This document shows, piece after piece, positions 18,253 to 28,183 of a DNA stretch of 29,143 nt. The notes beneath the pieces were generated by a model. The model saw nothing but the letters and a program-made list of their open reading frames with translations. It did no database searches and was not told the DNA's origin. The position numbers and the translations under genes are program-made. Each line of letters starts with the position of its first letter. Positions within the stretch are counted from its first letter, which is position 1. This stretch comes from a virus, in the IMG/VR virus record IMGVR_UViG_3300021091_000302, positions 1 through 29,143 of that record, one strand, 5' to 3'.

Positions 18253-18687
18253 ATGAGATCAAGTTATAAAGGAATTTATAAACCAACACACCCTAAAAAG
18301 TATGCTGGTGACCCAAATAGAATAATATATCGTTCACTATTAGAAAGACGTATGATGGTATATTTGGATAAAAATGATGCCGTTGAATTTTGGGGTAGTG
18401 AAGAAATACCAATAATTTATCGTTCACCTATTGATTATCGTATTCATAGATACTATCCAGATTTTATATTTAAATTAAAAACAGGCAAAAAATATATGGT
18501 TGAAATAAAACCATATCGTCAGTGTTTTCCACCTAAAAAACCAAAGAAACAAGGTCGTGCTTTTATGCGTGAACAATTAGAATATATAAAGAACCAAGCT
18601 AAATGGCAAGCCGCTAAAGCGTATTGTGAGGGTAACGATTTAGAGTTTAAGATATTTACCGAGAAGGATATAGGCGTCTATAACTGA
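18253..18687 (+). CDS. 4: Head completion protein gp4 (nuclease-like fold)
   Basis: A 144-residue protein (T4 gp4/50 is 150) that completes the packaged head for tail joining. The opening MRSSYKGIYKPTHPKKYAGD, then NRIIYRSLLERRMMVYLDKN and SPIDYRIHRYYPDFIFKL, match the family. A PD-(D/E)xK-like triad can be traced: E31, D70 (in YYPDF) and E84-x-K86 (VEIKP), as in TnsA-like nucleases. It has no strong ribosome site and lies 34 nt from gp48's divergent start. Confidence 0.9.
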   Translation: MRSSYKGIYKPTHPKKYAGDPNRIIYRSLLERRMMVYLDKNDAVEFWGSEEIPIIYRSPIDYRIHRYYPDFIFKLKTGKKYMVEIKPYRQCFPPKKPKKQGRAFMREQLEYIKNQAKWQAAKAYCEGNDLEFKIFTEKDIGVYN

Positions 18688-19637: not shown

Positions 19638-20189
19638 ATGGTTTCAATACTAGATAAAATAACGGACAAACAAGGCGATAATACTAAGTCGGCGACTTGG
19701 TATAAAAACGCAATATCATCAATTGGTCAAAAAATAACTGCACAAAAACTAATGTCGCAAGGAAAATTATCTGCGAGACCTAATATTGGTTTATTAAATT
19801 TATTCTTTTATGATCCAAAGTATAAAGAAACTTTACCATATTACGATACGTTTCCACTTGTACTGCCATTAGAAAGTATTAAAGGTGGTTTTAGTGGATT
19901 AAACTTTCACTATCTAGCACCTGGAGCTAGATTAAGACTATTAGAGCAAATGCAAAGATACGCTACAAATAAAGATTTATCGAAGGCAAGATTTGATGTA
20001 AGTTGGAGCCGTGTTAAATCTATACCATTATCAAAAGCAACAATTAAAAAATATTTGTATAAACACGTAAGATCAAGTTTTTTGAGAATAGATTTAAACC
20101 AAGCAGCTATTGCTTGTTATTTGCCTGTGCAACAGTTTCAAAAAAGGCCTGCTAGTTCTGTATATGCAGCTTCAAGGAGTTTTATCTAA
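19638..20189 (+). CDS. Conserved T4-like virion protein (DNA end protector-type candidate)
   Basis: A 183-residue protein. The central block GLLNLFFYDPKYKETLPYYD and DTFPLVLPLESIKGGFSGLN, then FHYLAPGARLRLLEQMQRYA, is shared by many marine T4-like phages, where relatives sit in the same neighbourhood as gp4 and the tube genes. Its C-terminus QFQKRPASSVYAASRSFI is also conserved in that group. I recall some relatives being annotated as the gp2 DNA end protector, but I cannot confirm that from sequence. Its stop overlaps the ATG of the gp54-like gene by one base. Confidence 0.6.
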   Translation: MVSILDKITDKQGDNTKSATWYKNAISSIGQKITAQKLMSQGKLSARPNIGLLNLFFYDPKYKETLPYYDTFPLVLPLESIKGGFSGLNFHYLAPGARLRLLEQMQRYATNKDLSKARFDVSWSRVKSIPLSKATIKKYLYKHVRSSFLRIDLNQAAIACYLPVQQFQKRPASSVYAASRSFI

Positions 20190-21172
20190 TGGCAATATTA
20201 AGAGGCGGAGTTCGAATTGGTGGTTTTGATGTAAGAATAGGTTTACCACGTGATCGTTCACTTGATAATGTTGAAAATGATCCACGTTTTAGACAAAAGG
20301 CAGGTGGCAATCCGGAAACTACAATAGGTCGTGTACAATCATATATTAATGAGGCAGAAGGATTTGCTCGTAAAGCAAGATTTTACGTAGAATTTAATTT
20401 ACCTAGAGCAGGCGGTGCTGGCATTACTAATGCTGACACAGGTGCTGAATTGAGTGGTGGTGCAAACGAATTAGAAACAACATTTAAAAGTTCAGCTGAA
20501 ATGATTGCTGTACAAAAAACAAACGCAAGACGTGTACAAGCATTTTGTTCTGCTATATCTATGCCTGAGCGTACTATAGAAATGAAAGAAGTGAAACATC
20601 ACGGTCCTGCATATAAAATAGCAATTGATTATAAATCGGCCGATATAAATGCTACATTTTATGCTGATAAGTTTTTAAGAGAAAGAAGTTATTTTGAATT
20701 ATGGCAAAAAGCTGCGTTCAGTAATCAAAGTCATAATTTTAATTTTTATGATAACTATGTATCTGATGTAAACATATTTCAATTAGGTCAATTTGCAAGC
20801 CGTAATGAAAGAGATGACGTAACTTATGCTGTAAAATTATTTGATTGTTATCCTAAAATTATCAGTGCTGTTGAGTACTCATACGAAAATAATGCTATTC
20901 AAACATTTCAAGTAACATTTGGTTTCAGATATTGGATAAATTACTTCTTAGATAGATCAGGCAATATAGAATTAGGTCAAGCAAACTTTAGAGATGTCAC
21001 TGTTAAAAGTTCTTTTGGTGCATTTGGCGGCCTATTAAACAAATTACCACCAGAATTAAGACGTGCTGGTGTTGATGTATTACAAGGACTAAAAAGACGT
21101 ATACCAATTGGTGGTATTACAGGTGGTCGAGTATTTCCTCCATTTGGCAATTTACCACCACTAAATTTATAA
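20189..21172 (+). CDS. 54: Tail tube initiator, gp54-like
   Basis: A 327-residue protein (T4 gp54 is 320). The middle carries a gp19/gp48-type tube fold: CSAISMPERTIEMKEVKHHG, then AIDYKSADINATFYADKFLR and FELWQKAAFSNQSHNFNFYD, and AVEYSYENNAIQTFQVTFGF. gp54 binds gp48 and forms the template ring for tail tube polymerisation. The C-terminal ~75 residues are Gly/Pro-rich. It starts on a TAATG overlap with the previous gene and precedes gp26. Confidence 0.75.
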   Translation: MAILRGGVRIGGFDVRIGLPRDRSLDNVENDPRFRQKAGGNPETTIGRVQSYINEAEGFARKARFYVEFNLPRAGGAGITNADTGAELSGGANELETTFKSSAEMIAVQKTNARRVQAFCSAISMPERTIEMKEVKHHGPAYKIAIDYKSADINATFYADKFLRERSYFELWQKAAFSNQSHNFNFYDNYVSDVNIFQLGQFASRNERDDVTYAVKLFDCYPKIISAVEYSYENNAIQTFQVTFGFRYWINYFLDRSGNIELGQANFRDVTVKSSFGAFGGLLNKLPPELRRAGVDVLQGLKRRIPIGGITGGRVFPPFGNLPPLNL

Positions 21173-21187
21173 TAAAAGGAGATAATA

Positions 21188-21907
21188 ATGACGTTACCAC
21201 GAGTTGATGTGCCTACATATGAGTTGACTCTACCATCACAAGATTTAAAAGTTAAGTTTAGACCTTTTCTTGTGAAAGAAGAAAAAATACTTTTCATAGC
21301 ACAAGAAACAGGCGACAATAAACAAATTGTTGAAGCAATTAGAGAAATAATTAATGCTTGTACATTTAATGCTTTAAAAGTAGATTTGTTACCTATATTT
21401 GATATAGAGTATATATTTTTACAATTAAGAGCTAAATCAGTATCAGAAATATCTAAATTTAAAACGATATGTCCTGATGATGGAAAAACTTATGTTGAAA
21501 CTGAAATTGATTTAACTAAGATTGAAGTTCAAGTTGATGATGAACATACTAATAAAATAATCTTAGATGAAAAAAGAAATCTAGGCGTAGTATTAGGTTA
21601 CCCTACTTTAAAAAACTATGATTATGGTAAGGGTAAGATTGACACTCAACAAATAGAGATGATGTTTACAATTTTAGTTGATTGTATAGATCACGTTTTT
21701 GAAGGTGATAAGATATATCCAGCAAAAGATAGTACTAAAAAAGAATTAAGAGAGTTCCTAGAAGGTCTACCACAGGAGGCTTTTATTAAAATAAGAAAGT
21801 TTTTTGAAACAATGCCTGTATTAAAACACGAAATAGAGGTAACAAATCCTAAAACTAACGTAAAAAGTAAGGTGGTTTTAACAGGAATATCTGATTTTTT
21901 CGAATAA
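21188..21907 (+). CDS. 26: Baseplate hub assembly protein gp26 (zero-frame product)
   Basis: A 239-residue protein (T4 gp26 is 208). The start MTLPRVDVPTYELTLPSQDL and the conserved KFRPFLVKEEKILFIAQET, with the later LPIFDIEYIFLQLRAKSVSE segment, are typical of the T4_baseplate/gp26 family. AAAAGGAG is well placed before the ATG. The end ...GISDFFE then TAA (21905-21907) is reached only without frameshifting; a -1 slip at 21895-21901 makes a 298-residue form instead. By analogy with other phages, the two forms may act as tail assembly chaperones for the tape measure. Confidence 0.85.
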   Translation: MTLPRVDVPTYELTLPSQDLKVKFRPFLVKEEKILFIAQETGDNKQIVEAIREIINACTFNALKVDLLPIFDIEYIFLQLRAKSVSEISKFKTICPDDGKTYVETEIDLTKIEVQVDDEHTNKIILDEKRNLGVVLGYPTLKNYDYGKGKIDTQQIEMMFTILVDCIDHVFEGDKIYPAKDSTKKELREFLEGLPQEAFIKIRKFFETMPVLKHEIEVTNPKTNVKSKVVLTGISDFFE

Positions 21908-21932
21908 GCCTCGCTCACAATTCATTAGAGGC
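21895..21932 (+). promoter_or_regulatory. Programmed -1 ribosomal frameshift signal
   Basis: Slippery heptamer T TTT TTC (21895-21901) lies in the zero-frame codon register of gp26, three to four codons before its stop. The spacer is 6 nt (21902-21907). A hairpin follows, GCCTC (21908-21912) with GAGGC (21928-21932). The loop segment GCTCAC (21913-21918) is complementary to GTGAGC (21983-21988), so a pseudoknot is possible. All elements of a classical site are present; function is untested. Confidence 0.75.
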
Positions 21933-22083
21933 ATACTTCGAAACTAACTTTGCTCTGATACAACATCATAAATATTCATTAAGTGAGCTTGAAAATATGA
22001 TACCTTGGGAGCGTGATATTTACATTTCATTATTGATTAATCATTTAAAAGAAGAAGCGGAAAGAAAAAAAAGGAAAAGTTAA
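21901..22083 (+). CDS. gp26 C-terminal frameshift extension (gp51-position domain)
   Basis: This is a 60-residue open stretch in the -1 frame, ending at TAA 22081-22083. Its first codon after the slip is CGA at 21901. There is no ATG, GTG or TTG from the upstream TGA to the internal Met near the middle, so it cannot be a free-standing gene. The content is protein-like: EAYFETNFALIQHHKYSLSE, then LENMIPWERDIYISLLINHL, with a basic helical tail. In T4, gene 51 follows 26. The fused product would be 238 + 60 residues. Its stop overlaps the next ATG (TAATG). Confidence 0.78.
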   Translation, partial: RISLAHNSLEAYFETNFALIQHHKYSLSELENMIPWERDIYISLLINHLKEEAERKKRKS

Positions 22084-22409
22084 TGAGTAAAGAATCACAC
22101 TTTAATACTAAATGGCGGCCTGCTATGGGTTGGTTATACTTAACTGTATGTTTATGTGATTTTATATTGTTTCCTGTGTTATGGAATATGGCGCAAACAA
22201 TATATTTAAATCAGGTCGTATTAACACAATGGAATCCCTTGACGTTACAAGGTGCTGGTTTCTTTCATATCGCAATGGGTGCGGTATTAGGCATTACGTC
22301 TTATGGTAGATCGCAAGAGAAAATAGAAGATAAAAAAGTAATATCACAATCAATGGAGCAATCGTTTTTAAAAAAACAAAAAATTAAAATAGACGATCAG
22401 ATAGGTTAA
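22083..22409 (+). CDS. Holin-like membrane protein
   Basis: A 108-residue protein. The start region WRPAMGWLYLTVCLCDFILF is typical of the 3TM / GTA-type holins, with two or three membrane helices (about residues 14-40 and 55-75) and a charged cytoplasmic tail (KIEDKKVISQSMEQSFLKKQ). Such a protein could make the membrane lesions that release an endolysin; no endolysin is in this window. It begins on a one-base overlap with the frameshift-extension stop. Confidence 0.6.
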   Translation: MSKESHFNTKWRPAMGWLYLTVCLCDFILFPVLWNMAQTIYLNQVVLTQWNPLTLQGAGFFHIAMGAVLGITSYGRSQEKIEDKKVISQSMEQSFLKKQKIKIDDQIG

Positions 22410-22412
22410 TAA

Positions 22413-23900
22413 ATGGCAGACGAAGCATTAAGAGATAAAGCACGATCAGTTTCAAATATAAAAAGAATTTCTACAGAACAAGGTGGTAAGCCATTAACCA
22501 CATCAAATATAACTTCTGCTTTAAGTGCTATTGCTACTACTGTAACTAATAGAATTAATCAAATGTCGGTAAATACCATAAAACAATTTTTACCCATTGA
22601 CTCTCAATTAAAACAAGTAAATGATTTATTAGCTTCAAATAGAGAAGGCGATATTGATAAAGGTTTTGAAATGATTGATAAGTTGCAATCAAGATTAGGT
22701 GTTGATTTAAGTAAATATAGTAAAGAAATAGGTGATGCTGTTCAAAAACTTTATGATATGAATAGACAACGTAAGGAAGATAAAGCAGAAGCTAATAGAA
22801 TACAAAAAGAAAAAACTGAAGAATTAACAATAGAAAGAGATATATTAAGAGAACAAGGTATTAATACTTATGTTAATGAAAAAACTTTGAAATTAGAAAT
22901 TAAAAGTAAAAGAGAAGAAAGAGAAGAAAAGAAAAGATTACAAAAAGAAGAACAAAGACTAAGAGATGAAGAAAAAGATATATTAAAACAAACTAAAGAG
23001 CTTAAAAAATTAGATAGAAGTGATAAAGAAAGAGCTGAAATAGAGGAAATGGTTTTAGCGCGTAGTGAAAATTTATCAAAAGATAAAAAGAAATTTGAAG
23101 AAGATAAAGCAAAAGCTAATATACAACCTGGTCAAAGAGTTTCCGGACCATTAGACCAGACAGTAGGCGAAGCATTTAGACAAATAAAAAATTTTGGAAA
23201 AGAAATCACACAATTAGGTGGTGATTTATTTAAGGGTTTCGGTAAATTAGCTGGCGTAGTTGGTAAACTTGCGTTAGGGTTTTTAAAATTTTTACTTGTA
23301 TTAATACCTATTTTATTAATCGTAGCTGCTGTAGGTGTGGTTATATATGCTTTATATAAAGCAATAAAAGCAGTCATAGATTTCTTTGCTAATATATTTG
23401 ATGGTATCAGTAAAATATGGCCATTTAGTTTGTTAAAGAAAGACGATAATAAGAAAAATGAGAAAGTAACAGAAGCTAAAAAAGATGTTGCTGCAAAAAC
23501 AGATGCTAATTCGGAAATAGAAAAAGGTCGTTCTATCGAAAAAGTTGCACCTGGTACATTAGAAAATAGAAGTAACGCTATGTCGCCTGGTGCTGAAGAA
23601 CCAGATGAAGTGGCAGATGAATTTGAAAGAAATACAGGTATGAGATTAACTCAACGTGTGCCTGGTAGAAAAGTAATAAGAGATGCTTCATTTATTGAAC
23701 CTGCTTCATATAAACAAGAAAATATAAACAAGATGAGTGTTGAAAATCAAGCACTTAGTGAATCAAAATCAGCTAATAATACAGTTGTAGCGCCTAACAT
23801 ATCTAATAGTAATGTAAATGCTTCAAATACACAAGCTATGACTATGGAACCTACAAACTTTGATCGTTCTTTTATTAATTTAAATACAGTACCAATTTAA
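22413..23900 (+). CDS. Probable tape-measure protein (gp29 position)
   Basis: A 495-residue protein. Residues 50-240 are Lys/Glu-rich and strongly helical (long coiled coil, e.g. REEREEKKRLQKEEQRLRDE). A strong hydrophobic segment around residues 285-320 (LGFLKFLLVLIPILLIVAAV) may insert into the host membrane. These features, and its place two genes after the frameshifted gp26, suit a tail-length tape measure; T4 gp29 is 590 residues. No motif settles the identity. It ends just before a bidirectional-looking terminator at 23903. Confidence 0.55.
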   Translation: MADEALRDKARSVSNIKRISTEQGGKPLTTSNITSALSAIATTVTNRINQMSVNTIKQFLPIDSQLKQVNDLLASNREGDIDKGFEMIDKLQSRLGVDLSKYSKEIGDAVQKLYDMNRQRKEDKAEANRIQKEKTEELTIERDILREQGINTYVNEKTLKLEIKSKREEREEKKRLQKEEQRLRDEEKDILKQTKELKKLDRSDKERAEIEEMVLARSENLSKDKKKFEEDKAKANIQPGQRVSGPLDQTVGEAFRQIKNFGKEITQLGGDLFKGFGKLAGVVGKLALGFLKFLLVLIPILLIVAAVGVVIYALYKAIKAVIDFFANIFDGISKIWPFSLLKKDDNKKNEKVTEAKKDVAAKTDANSEIEKGRSIEKVAPGTLENRSNAMSPGAEEPDEVADEFERNTGMRLTQRVPGRKVIRDASFIEPASYKQENINKMSVENQALSESKSANNTVVAPNISNSNVNASNTQAMTMEPTNFDRSFINLNTVPI

Positions 23901-26733: not shown

Positions 26734-27264
26734 TTATTCTGGTATGTAAATATACTCTAAATTCATTTTTTCCATAGTAATAGTAGCCATATTAAAATCT
26801 TCTACGATAGGATATTCAGCTAAATTAAAGGATGTATTTAATAAAATAGGTACACCTGTTTTTAAAAAAAATGATTCAATCAAATCGTAAAAATGTTTAT
26901 TTTCTATTTTTTTTAAAGTTTGTATTCTGCAAGTCCCATCCACGTGTGTTATTGAAGGTATTTTATTTTTAATGTCCTCATTAACTTTGACAGCAAAACT
27001 CATATATGGAGATTCTTTTAGTGTGTAAAAATTAAACCATTTATCTTTTTCTTCAAATAAAACAGTTCCTGCTAAAGGCCTCCACCACTCTCTACCTTTT
27101 ATTTTATTAATAATTAAATTACCATCTTTAATTCTAGGATCGTATAAAATTGATTTAAAACCTAAAGCTCTATTACCCAATTCAGATTCATTTTGATATA
27201 TTACTAAAATGTTTTTTTCCAATAATAACTCAACAGCTTTTTCTTTACTTTTTATAATTTTCAT
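26734..27264 (-). CDS. Carbamoyltransferase C-terminal domain as a separate gene
   Basis: A 176-residue Carbam_trans_C-type protein. The conserved ESELGNRALGFKSILYDPR block (near residues 26-44), GREWWRPLAGTVLFEE, TCRIQTL and PILLNTSFN are all family motifs. In NodU/TobZ enzymes this domain is joined to the N-domain in one chain. Here it begins inside the end of the N-domain gene with a 20-nt overlap in another frame. The pair likely makes a two-subunit carbamoyltransferase that O-carbamoylates a sugar or metabolite. Confidence 0.85.
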   Translation of the reverse strand: MKIIKSKEKAVELLLEKNILVIYQNESELGNRALGFKSILYDPRIKDGNLIINKIKGREWWRPLAGTVLFEEKDKWFNFYTLKESPYMSFAVKVNEDIKNKIPSITHVDGTCRIQTLKKIENKHFYDLIESFFLKTGVPILLNTSFNLAEYPIVEDFNMATITMEKMNLEYIYIPE

Positions 27265-28183
27265 AATACAATGATACTCCTATTGCTGTTCCCGCATCAT
27301 AAGGTATAGGATCAACAAAAAAATTTAAATTAGGATATTTTTTAACATATTCAAAGTTATTTACACAATTTAAAAAATAACCACCAGATAATATAATGTT
27401 TTTTACATTACTAATTCTTTGACTTCTCTCTATCAATTCGCAAGTATCTCTAAAAGTCTTTTCTTGTGCTCTTTTAGCAATTTCTACTTTAAAATAATCT
27501 ACATCATATCTATCATCAGTATAAGCATAACTAGATAGACCCATTAATTTTCCAGCGTCAATTCCTCTCATACCTGCTCTTAAACAAGCTATGTTAAATT
27601 CTAAACCTCCAACAGAATTTGAAGAAAATTTGTAAAAAATATTATTAATTTTTTCTTCACAAACGTAATTTGAATAATTTCCTATTTTTTGATCGACTTT
27701 ACAAAATCTTCTATTAGACAAATGCTGAAATTTTTTTTCTACCGTTTTCTTATCTATATAAAAAATTGACTCCATTTCTTGATAAGTAGGAAAAGTTGAT
27801 AATGGTTGAGATCCTGCACCATCAACCACTAAACACATAGCTTCTTCAAATTTTGAAAAATAAAATCCTGATATGGCGTGATAAATGTGGTGTAGAGATT
27901 TATCAAAAAAATAATTTTTTAAATTTATATTATTTAATATTTTTTTTATAATATCTTCATCATTTTTTATAGGATTTAAAGATCTATCATAAGATGCAAA
28001 ACAAACAATATCAGGATTTTCATATTTATTTTTACTTAATGATATAAAATTACAATCATCTACTGTTGGTGACCAGTTTTTTTTTAAATTATATCTATCT
28101 TCTTGACAAAAAAACTTTAGATTGTTATTTTCAAAATAACAAACAGAACCATTGTGTGATATATTAAATGATAATATTTTCAT
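27245..28183 (-). CDS. Carbamoyltransferase N-terminal domain as a separate gene
   Basis: A 312-residue Carbam_trans_N-type protein with the TsaD/HypF-like ASKHA fold. The N-terminus MKILSFNISHNGSVCYFENN, the HHIYHA metal pair near residue 100, LVVDGAGSQ and the late ILSGGYFLNCVNNFEY and DAGTAIGVSLYYEN segments are typical. It ends where the linker to the C-domain would be. The ATG overlaps the stop of gp33 by four bases (ATGA). Confidence 0.85.
   Translation of the reverse strand: MKILSFNISHNGSVCYFENNNLKFFCQEDRYNLKKNWSPTVDDCNFISLSKNKYENPDIVCFASYDRSLNPIKNDEDIIKKILNNINLKNYFFDKSLHHIYHAISGFYFSKFEEAMCLVVDGAGSQPLSTFPTYQEMESIFYIDKKTVEKKFQHLSNRRFCKVDQKIGNYSNYVCEEKINNIFYKFSSNSVGGLEFNIACLRAGMRGIDAGKLMGLSSYAYTDDRYDVDYFKVEIAKRAQEKTFRDTCELIERSQRISNVKNIILSGGYFLNCVNNFEYVKKYPNLNFFVDPIPYDAGTAIGVSLYYENYKK

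Follow-up and report, generated by a model that had tools for sequence, protein, structure and literature searches.

A 29,143-nucleotide stretch of DNA from a marine T4-like virus (IMG/VR record IMGVR_UViG_3300021091_000302, referred to here as the window) contains a homologue of T4 gene 26. Beyond this gene, the -1 frame stays open for 60 codons, in which the first possible start codon lies only in the middle. How this start-less frame is translated, and what its product does, is the question raised by the locus. An earlier note on the DNA proposed that ribosomes shift into the -1 frame at the end of gp26 and that the resulting proteins are a pair of tail chaperones. On the basis of sequence comparison, we assign a probability of about 0.93 to the interpretation that gp26 and its extended form (gp26-ext) constitute a chaperone pair of the lambda G/GT type produced by -1 ribosomal frameshifting.

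The gp26 junction and its surroundings

The gp26 gene (21188–21907, + strand) encodes a zero-frame product of 239 amino acids, the putative short form of the tail assembly chaperone (TAC-N), and ends with TAA at 21905–21907. The protein matched PF12322 (T4_baseplate) at 7.2e-62, with a score of 209 against a cut-off of 24.5 bits, and phrog_150 at 2.2e-66. The 3′ end of the gene reads GAT TTT TTC GAA TAA and thus contains a slippery heptamer of the X_XXY_YYZ form, T_TTT_TTC (21895–21901, +), in the zero-frame register GAT TTT TTC, with the stop codon one codon past it. Heptamers of the U_UUU_UUY type fall within the efficient H_HH.U_UU.Y class in E. coli (PMC4066793). A TGA in the -1 frame (21892–21894, +) lies directly 5′ of the heptamer. 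The -1 frame is open from CGA at 21901 to TAA at 22081–22083, and the extension (gp51/TAC-C domain; 21901–22083, +) comprises 60 codons, RISLAHN...RKKRKS, plus TAA. Its earliest ATG, GTG, or TTG is the ATG at 21997, which is codon 33. On re-reading of the sequence, the positions that the earlier note had given for the heptamer, TGA, stop codon, extension, and downstream hairpin were all correct, as was its placement of the first start codon in mid-extension. At the level of sequence, the locus thus encodes both a short form and a long form extended in the -1 frame, the arrangement expected of tail assembly chaperones.

The extension matched phrog_634 (baseplate hub assembly catalyst, gp51) at 1.5e-28, aligned with residues ~203–243 of T4 gp51, and also matched the end of phrog_150; tblastn matches to it were found in >600 phage records. 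The suggestion of the earlier note that this frame occupies the position of gp51 was therefore upheld, and the combination of a PF12322 domain with homology to the COOH-terminus of gp51 places the locus in the T4 gp26/gp51 family.

In the AT-rich window, 141 in-frame heptamers of the A/T type were present among 8,312 codons, and the heptamer alone was therefore ruled out as a significant signal. Several genes of the window also have a long open -1 frame beyond their stop codon, because the next gene lies there. Judged from the window sequence alone, the junction signal exceeds chance only weakly, whereas across relatives it clearly does so. Given that heptamers are common in the window, the case rests on comparison with relatives.

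Upstream of gp26 is a gene for a tail tube or gp54-type tail tube initiator protein (20189–21172, +; phrog_45 tail tube, 9.7e-37). Downstream is a gene for a small membrane or holin-like protein (22083–22409, +; phrog_3427 holin, 8.2e-07; PF11351, 4.5e-05, just below its cut-off), which starts on the stop codon of the extension (TAATG) and lies between the chaperone and a gene for a tape-measure-like protein of 495 amino acids (22413–23900, +). The match of this last protein to phrog_28 (tail length tape measure) was weak (1.8e-7), and BLASTP comparison with HTVC008M and Mosig yielded no clear match; its gene occupies the slot of the putative tail tape measure of HTVC008M. These observations weakly suggest that the product is a tape measure protein. 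The candidate chaperone is thus located between tail tube and tape measure genes, with one small gene intervening and with synteny to HTVC008M. The best relatives of the window among named phages were the Pelagibacter phages Mosig and HTVC008M together with marine cyanophages, and the virus is probably a Pelagibacter-phage-like member of the Kyanoviridae, the host being presumed. Elsewhere in the window, two adjoining genes on the minus strand (26734–28183), the first with a Carbam_trans_N match (7.3e-10), look like a split carbamoyltransferase, and a small protein encoded at 18253–18687, by the tail and DNA-end-protector genes, has a TnsA-like endonuclease NH2-terminal domain (PF08722, 3.9e-17).

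Conservation of the junction and selection on the extension

The earlier note had proposed alignment of gp26 loci from related phages. All 24 named frameshift-type phages examined have the extension in the -1 frame and, where it joins gp26, a T_TTT_TTN heptamer in the zero-frame register; their hosts are Pelagibacter, Methylophilales, Synechococcus, Prochlorococcus, Vibrio, Aeromonas, Caulobacter, Ochrobactrum, Rhizobium, Stenotrophomonas, Cronobacter, and Citrobacter. The heptamer was T_TTT_TTC or T_TTT_TTT and, once, T_TTT_TTG (RHph_I34). The stop codon was usually separated from the heptamer by exactly one sense codon in diverse relatives, and it followed 8 codons past the heptamer in one pelagiphage subgroup. 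Among IMG/VR records, 76 pelagiphage-type loci in addition to the window likewise have the extension in the -1 frame behind an in-frame heptamer, a set that leaves out three loci stopping before the junction and one with a deletion (L062). The same junction was also found in 78 of 80 cyanophage-type loci, the remaining two of which end before it, and in 17 of 17 further loci (95 in total). Every IMG/VR relative with a locatable junction thus has the in-frame T_TTT_TTN heptamer. An uninterrupted gp26-ext frame without the heptamer at this junction was not seen in relatives outside the T4 clade with its separate gp51.

The codon preceding TTT always ends in T, even though the encoded amino acid varies among Asp, Ser (TCT or AGT), Asn, Ala, and Gly, which indicates a constraint at the nucleotide level. 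The joint probability of xxT TTT over the 24 phages, given the codon usage of each genome, was about 1e-12, a value that treats the phages as independent and is thus over-strong for lineages that are not fully so.

We examined selection on the extension in 39 distinct close relatives. The dN/dS ratio in the -1 frame was 0.107 for extension codons 1–32, all of which lie upstream of the first ATG of the window, and 0.072 for codons 12–32; the DNA of codons 12–32 gave ratios of 1.3–1.7 when read in the two other frames. None of the 39 relatives has a start codon before codon 19 of the extension, and in all of them the other two frames over the extension contain stop codons. Strong purifying selection therefore acts on the part of the extension that precedes any start codon, and these start-less residues could hardly be made other than by continuation from gp26. 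Conservation of the heptamer, its phase, and the extension over many lineages, together with this selection, supports the frameshift proposed in the earlier note.

A variant of the junction was found in the Ackermannviridae. Phages Menlow (L117:3289-3456), Serratia 3M (L221, after 2226), and SeF6a (L222, after 2220) carry a homologue of the extension in the -1 frame after a gp26-like gene (hmmsearch E values of about 1e-8 to 4e-6). Their junction reads [ATT/GTT] TTC AT[T/C] stop and contains only a T_TTC tetramer, with no heptamer. With a stimulator present, this motif is the second-ranking tetramer in E. coli (PMC4066793). The homologue is without annotation in Menlow and 3M.

Candidate stimulators and alternative routes to the extension

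A probable stimulatory hairpin (21908–21932, +) is formed by GCCTC at 21908–21912 and GAGGC at 21928–21932, with a 15-nt loop, and is separated from the heptamer by a spacer of 6 nt. Among the 39 relatives, the first arm was GCCTC in 38 and GCCTT in one, and the second arm was GAGGC in all; the arms were paired in 38 of 38 distinct relatives, with the single C-G to U-G change preserving pairing. Given that the arms are nearly invariant, the covariation test was uninformative and provided no support for the hairpin of the window group, and we therefore relied on codon rarity. Elsewhere in these genes, CTC makes up 0.1% of Leu codons and GAG 21% of Glu codons, whereas CTC was used at the first arm in 38 of 39 relatives and GAG at the second arm in 39 of 39. 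The hairpin of the window itself is short (5 bp), with a z score of -1.4, and is at least as stable as 89% of local windows. For 24 diverse phages including the window, folding of the 50 nt starting 5 nt past the heptamer was stronger than that of dinucleotide shuffles (Stouffer z of -9.0) and than that of local windows (combined p of about 9e-4). Strong lineage-specific stems were apparent in S-SSM7, S-ShM2, S-WAM1, MED4-213, Cr30, LG08, and S-CREM2, and no notable downstream structure was found in Aeromonas 65, Ochrobactrum OC, Cronobacter S13, or RHph_I34. An outer stem predicted by RNAalifold that included part of the heptamer was dropped, given that no pair in it showed a supported two-sided change.

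Upstream of the heptamer is a weak Shine-Dalgarno-like AGGA (21883–21886, +), in place of which many cyanophages have a strong GGAGGG or GAGGG, with GGAGGG about 9–10 nt upstream of the heptamer. Stimulatory Shine-Dalgarno-like sequences in E. coli have been searched for 6–17 nt upstream (PMC4066793). As a stimulator this match is suggestive only, part of it being forced by a conserved Gly codon. Both the hairpin and the Shine-Dalgarno-like sequence have the character of stimulatory elements; the hairpin probably acts as such, and the Shine-Dalgarno-like sequence may do so.

Alternatively, the extension might be a small gp51 gene in its own right, with translation either by reinitiation or by initiation at an internal or non-canonical codon. 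This is how it appears in most GenBank records, with separate "baseplate hub assembly catalyst" coding sequences drawn in Mosig, HTVC008M, S-ShM2, Cr30, and RHph_I34, and in Cr30 (L087), RHph_I34 (L092), Moby (L113), and phages of the KVP40 type (L096) an ATG in the -1 frame overlaps the gp26 stop codon (TGATG or TAATG). In these last phages, a free extension peptide may possibly be produced by coupled reinitiation alongside the frameshift. The heptamer is nevertheless retained even where such an ATG is present, and S-WAM1, S-CAM1, ACG-2014e, Ah1, P19, and S13 carry the extension with no annotated gene. Given also the position of the first start codon in the window and in the 39 relatives, and the purifying selection on the codons that precede it, we consider a separate gene very unlikely.

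A fusion identical to that expected from -1 frameshifting would also result if RNA polymerase inserted an extra U at the conserved run of six T residues. RNA polymerase slippage usually requires runs of 8 or more, however, and six residues are short for it; RHph_I34, moreover, keeps T_TTT_TTG. The phase of the heptamer, the hairpin beyond a 6-nt spacer, the Shine-Dalgarno-like site ~9–10 nt upstream, and the stop codon just behind are suited to slippage of the ribosome, so that a transcriptional origin appears even less probable than a separate gene. Sequencing or assembly errors classically give rise to apparent frameshifts in homopolymers, and the interrupted frame might otherwise mark a decayed gene. 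The arrangement recurs, however, in some 170 IMG/VR contigs as well as in 24 phage genomes, data that come from many laboratories, and both parts of the product are under purifying selection. We regard this last explanation as scarcely credible.

For -1 ribosomal frameshifting, we propose the following mechanism. A fraction of ribosomes with tRNA-Phe on T_TTT_TTC would slip back by one base, probably being slowed at the heptamer by the GCCTC/GAGGC hairpin downstream and by the stop codon that follows one codon later. The slipped ribosomes would bypass the TAA at 21905 and append the 60-residue gp51-like domain. The output would be a large amount of gp26 and a small amount of gp26-ext, which would correspond to gpG and gpGT of lambda. 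On this analogy, the gp26 portion may coat the tape-measure protein and the extension may recruit tail tube subunits.

Comparison with known tail assembly chaperones

To place gp26 among known chaperones, we obtained a structure model with AF2 (pLDDT of 85.6, pTM of 0.80). In a second-look structural alignment, the one comparison to yield a chaperone match, residues 1–87 of the model matched the HK97 tail assembly chaperone (2ob9; Z of 7.6, rmsd of 4.1, 83 aligned) and YqbN (3klu; Z of 6.8, rmsd of 4.1, 85 aligned), which ranked first and second among the 396 chains compared. Both matches are moderate (Z of <8) and cover residues 1–87 only, sequence identity being about 8–9%; the further COOH-terminal part of gp26 was without a match. 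A Foldseek comparison of the model with the PDB gave no significant match, with 2ob9 among the entries listed, and a search of PDB sequences with the gp26 profile found no relatives. The predicted NH2-terminal domain thus bears a moderate resemblance to the HK97 and YqbN chaperones, its best structural matches, in keeping with a TAC fold. Together with the weakly matched tape-measure-like gene that follows, this resemblance favors the chaperone pair suggested in the earlier note.

In T4, the two halves of the window protein are accounted for by two divergently oriented paralogous genes, with no frameshift. T4 gp26 (208 amino acids) consists of the PF12322 domain alone, whereas gp51 (249 amino acids) comprises this domain (residues 1–201, 3.9e-52) plus the extension; the two are related to each other by BLASTP (2e-6) as well as by the shared PF12322 domain. 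A profile of the extension matched the COOH-termini of T4-clade gp51 proteins (E of 4.6e-11 to 3e-4, with Z set to 1000) and did not match T4 gp26. The heptamer was found in gene 26 of none of 11 T4-clade phages; E-F-F is often kept in these genes, in several of which it is written GAG TTC TTT. The heptamer is thus absent exactly where the long form has its own gene, and T4 and its close relatives would obtain the same two products from two paralogues, gene 26 for the short form and gene 51 for the long form in which both parts are fused. An AF2 model for T4-type gp51 (pLDDT of 88.6) showed an order of elements like that of gp26 followed by a helical extension, and a chaperone match was absent from its PDB list. 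In one T4-clade IMG/VR record (L108:1501-2246), the frame of the gp51 homologue is interrupted near residue 120, as a result of either a sequencing error or a real change.

In a review of T4, gp26 and gp51 appear among the hub assembly chaperones (PMC3004832), and Sullivan et al. (2010) described gp51 of cyanophages and vibriophages as lacking the first ~200 residues (PMC3037559). On the frameshift reading, these residues would be missing because gp26 supplies them. Many of the short genes that cyanophage and pelagiphage records label "baseplate hub assembly catalyst" would then be truncated halves of a frameshift product. Several records are without the extension domain altogether, and annotation should join gp26 and the extension.

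The T4-like superfamily may also offer a natural series for a single recoding event, with a strong U_UUU_UUN heptamer and lineage-specific hairpins in most groups, a bare U_UUC tetramer in the Ackermannviridae, and full replacement through gene duplication (26 and 51), without the heptamer, in the T4 clade; the stop codon one codon on may itself be part of the signal, in a termination-coupled slip. We put this idea forward tentatively, as one that could well prove wrong. If it is true, one could follow within a single gene family how a programmed frameshift was lost and replaced.

The most likely role of gp26 and gp26-ext, by analogy, is that of lambda gpG and gpGT, which are likewise a short form and a -1 extended form encoded before the tape measure. 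This likeness was not detected by sequence. The slippery heptamer of lambda is G_GGA_AAG, whereas that of the window is U_UUU_UUC, and the window, unlike lambda, has a stop codon one codon past the slip site and a holin-like gene between the chaperone and the tape-measure-like gene. The abstract of the 2022 study by Vladimirov, Gautam, and Davidson reportedly describes frameshifting in several T4-like groups. In lambda, a low-level -1 slip occurs near the end of the first frame, and a 2016 review of recoding described G-T frameshifting as conserved in long-tailed phages, with T4 as the exception (PMC5009743).

The tail chaperone genes of T4-like phages were identified by Vladimirov, Gautam & Davidson (2022, Virology 566:9-15), to judge from citing papers. 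Passages citing this study mention T4-like phages some of which have separate short and fused genes (the PRFect paper) and poly-T frameshift signals in TAC-N genes (the Adele paper, 2025). In the papers searched, we found no mention of the codon-locked pelagiphage hairpin, the number of T4-clade phages that lack the heptamer, or the -1 extension in the Ackermannviridae. Our data are in line with the 2022 identification and strengthen it quantitatively across many marine lineages, through the conservation of the heptamer, the selection on -1 frame codons that precede any start codon, the codon-locked hairpin, and the absence of the heptamer in the T4 clade. As far as citing papers describe the T4-like chaperones, the genes are the same, with gp26 as the short form and a gp51-type extension, and the window represents an uncultivated, Pelagibacter-phage-like member. 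The frameshifted chaperone of the window is thus well supported as a new example of a mechanism already published for T4-like phages.
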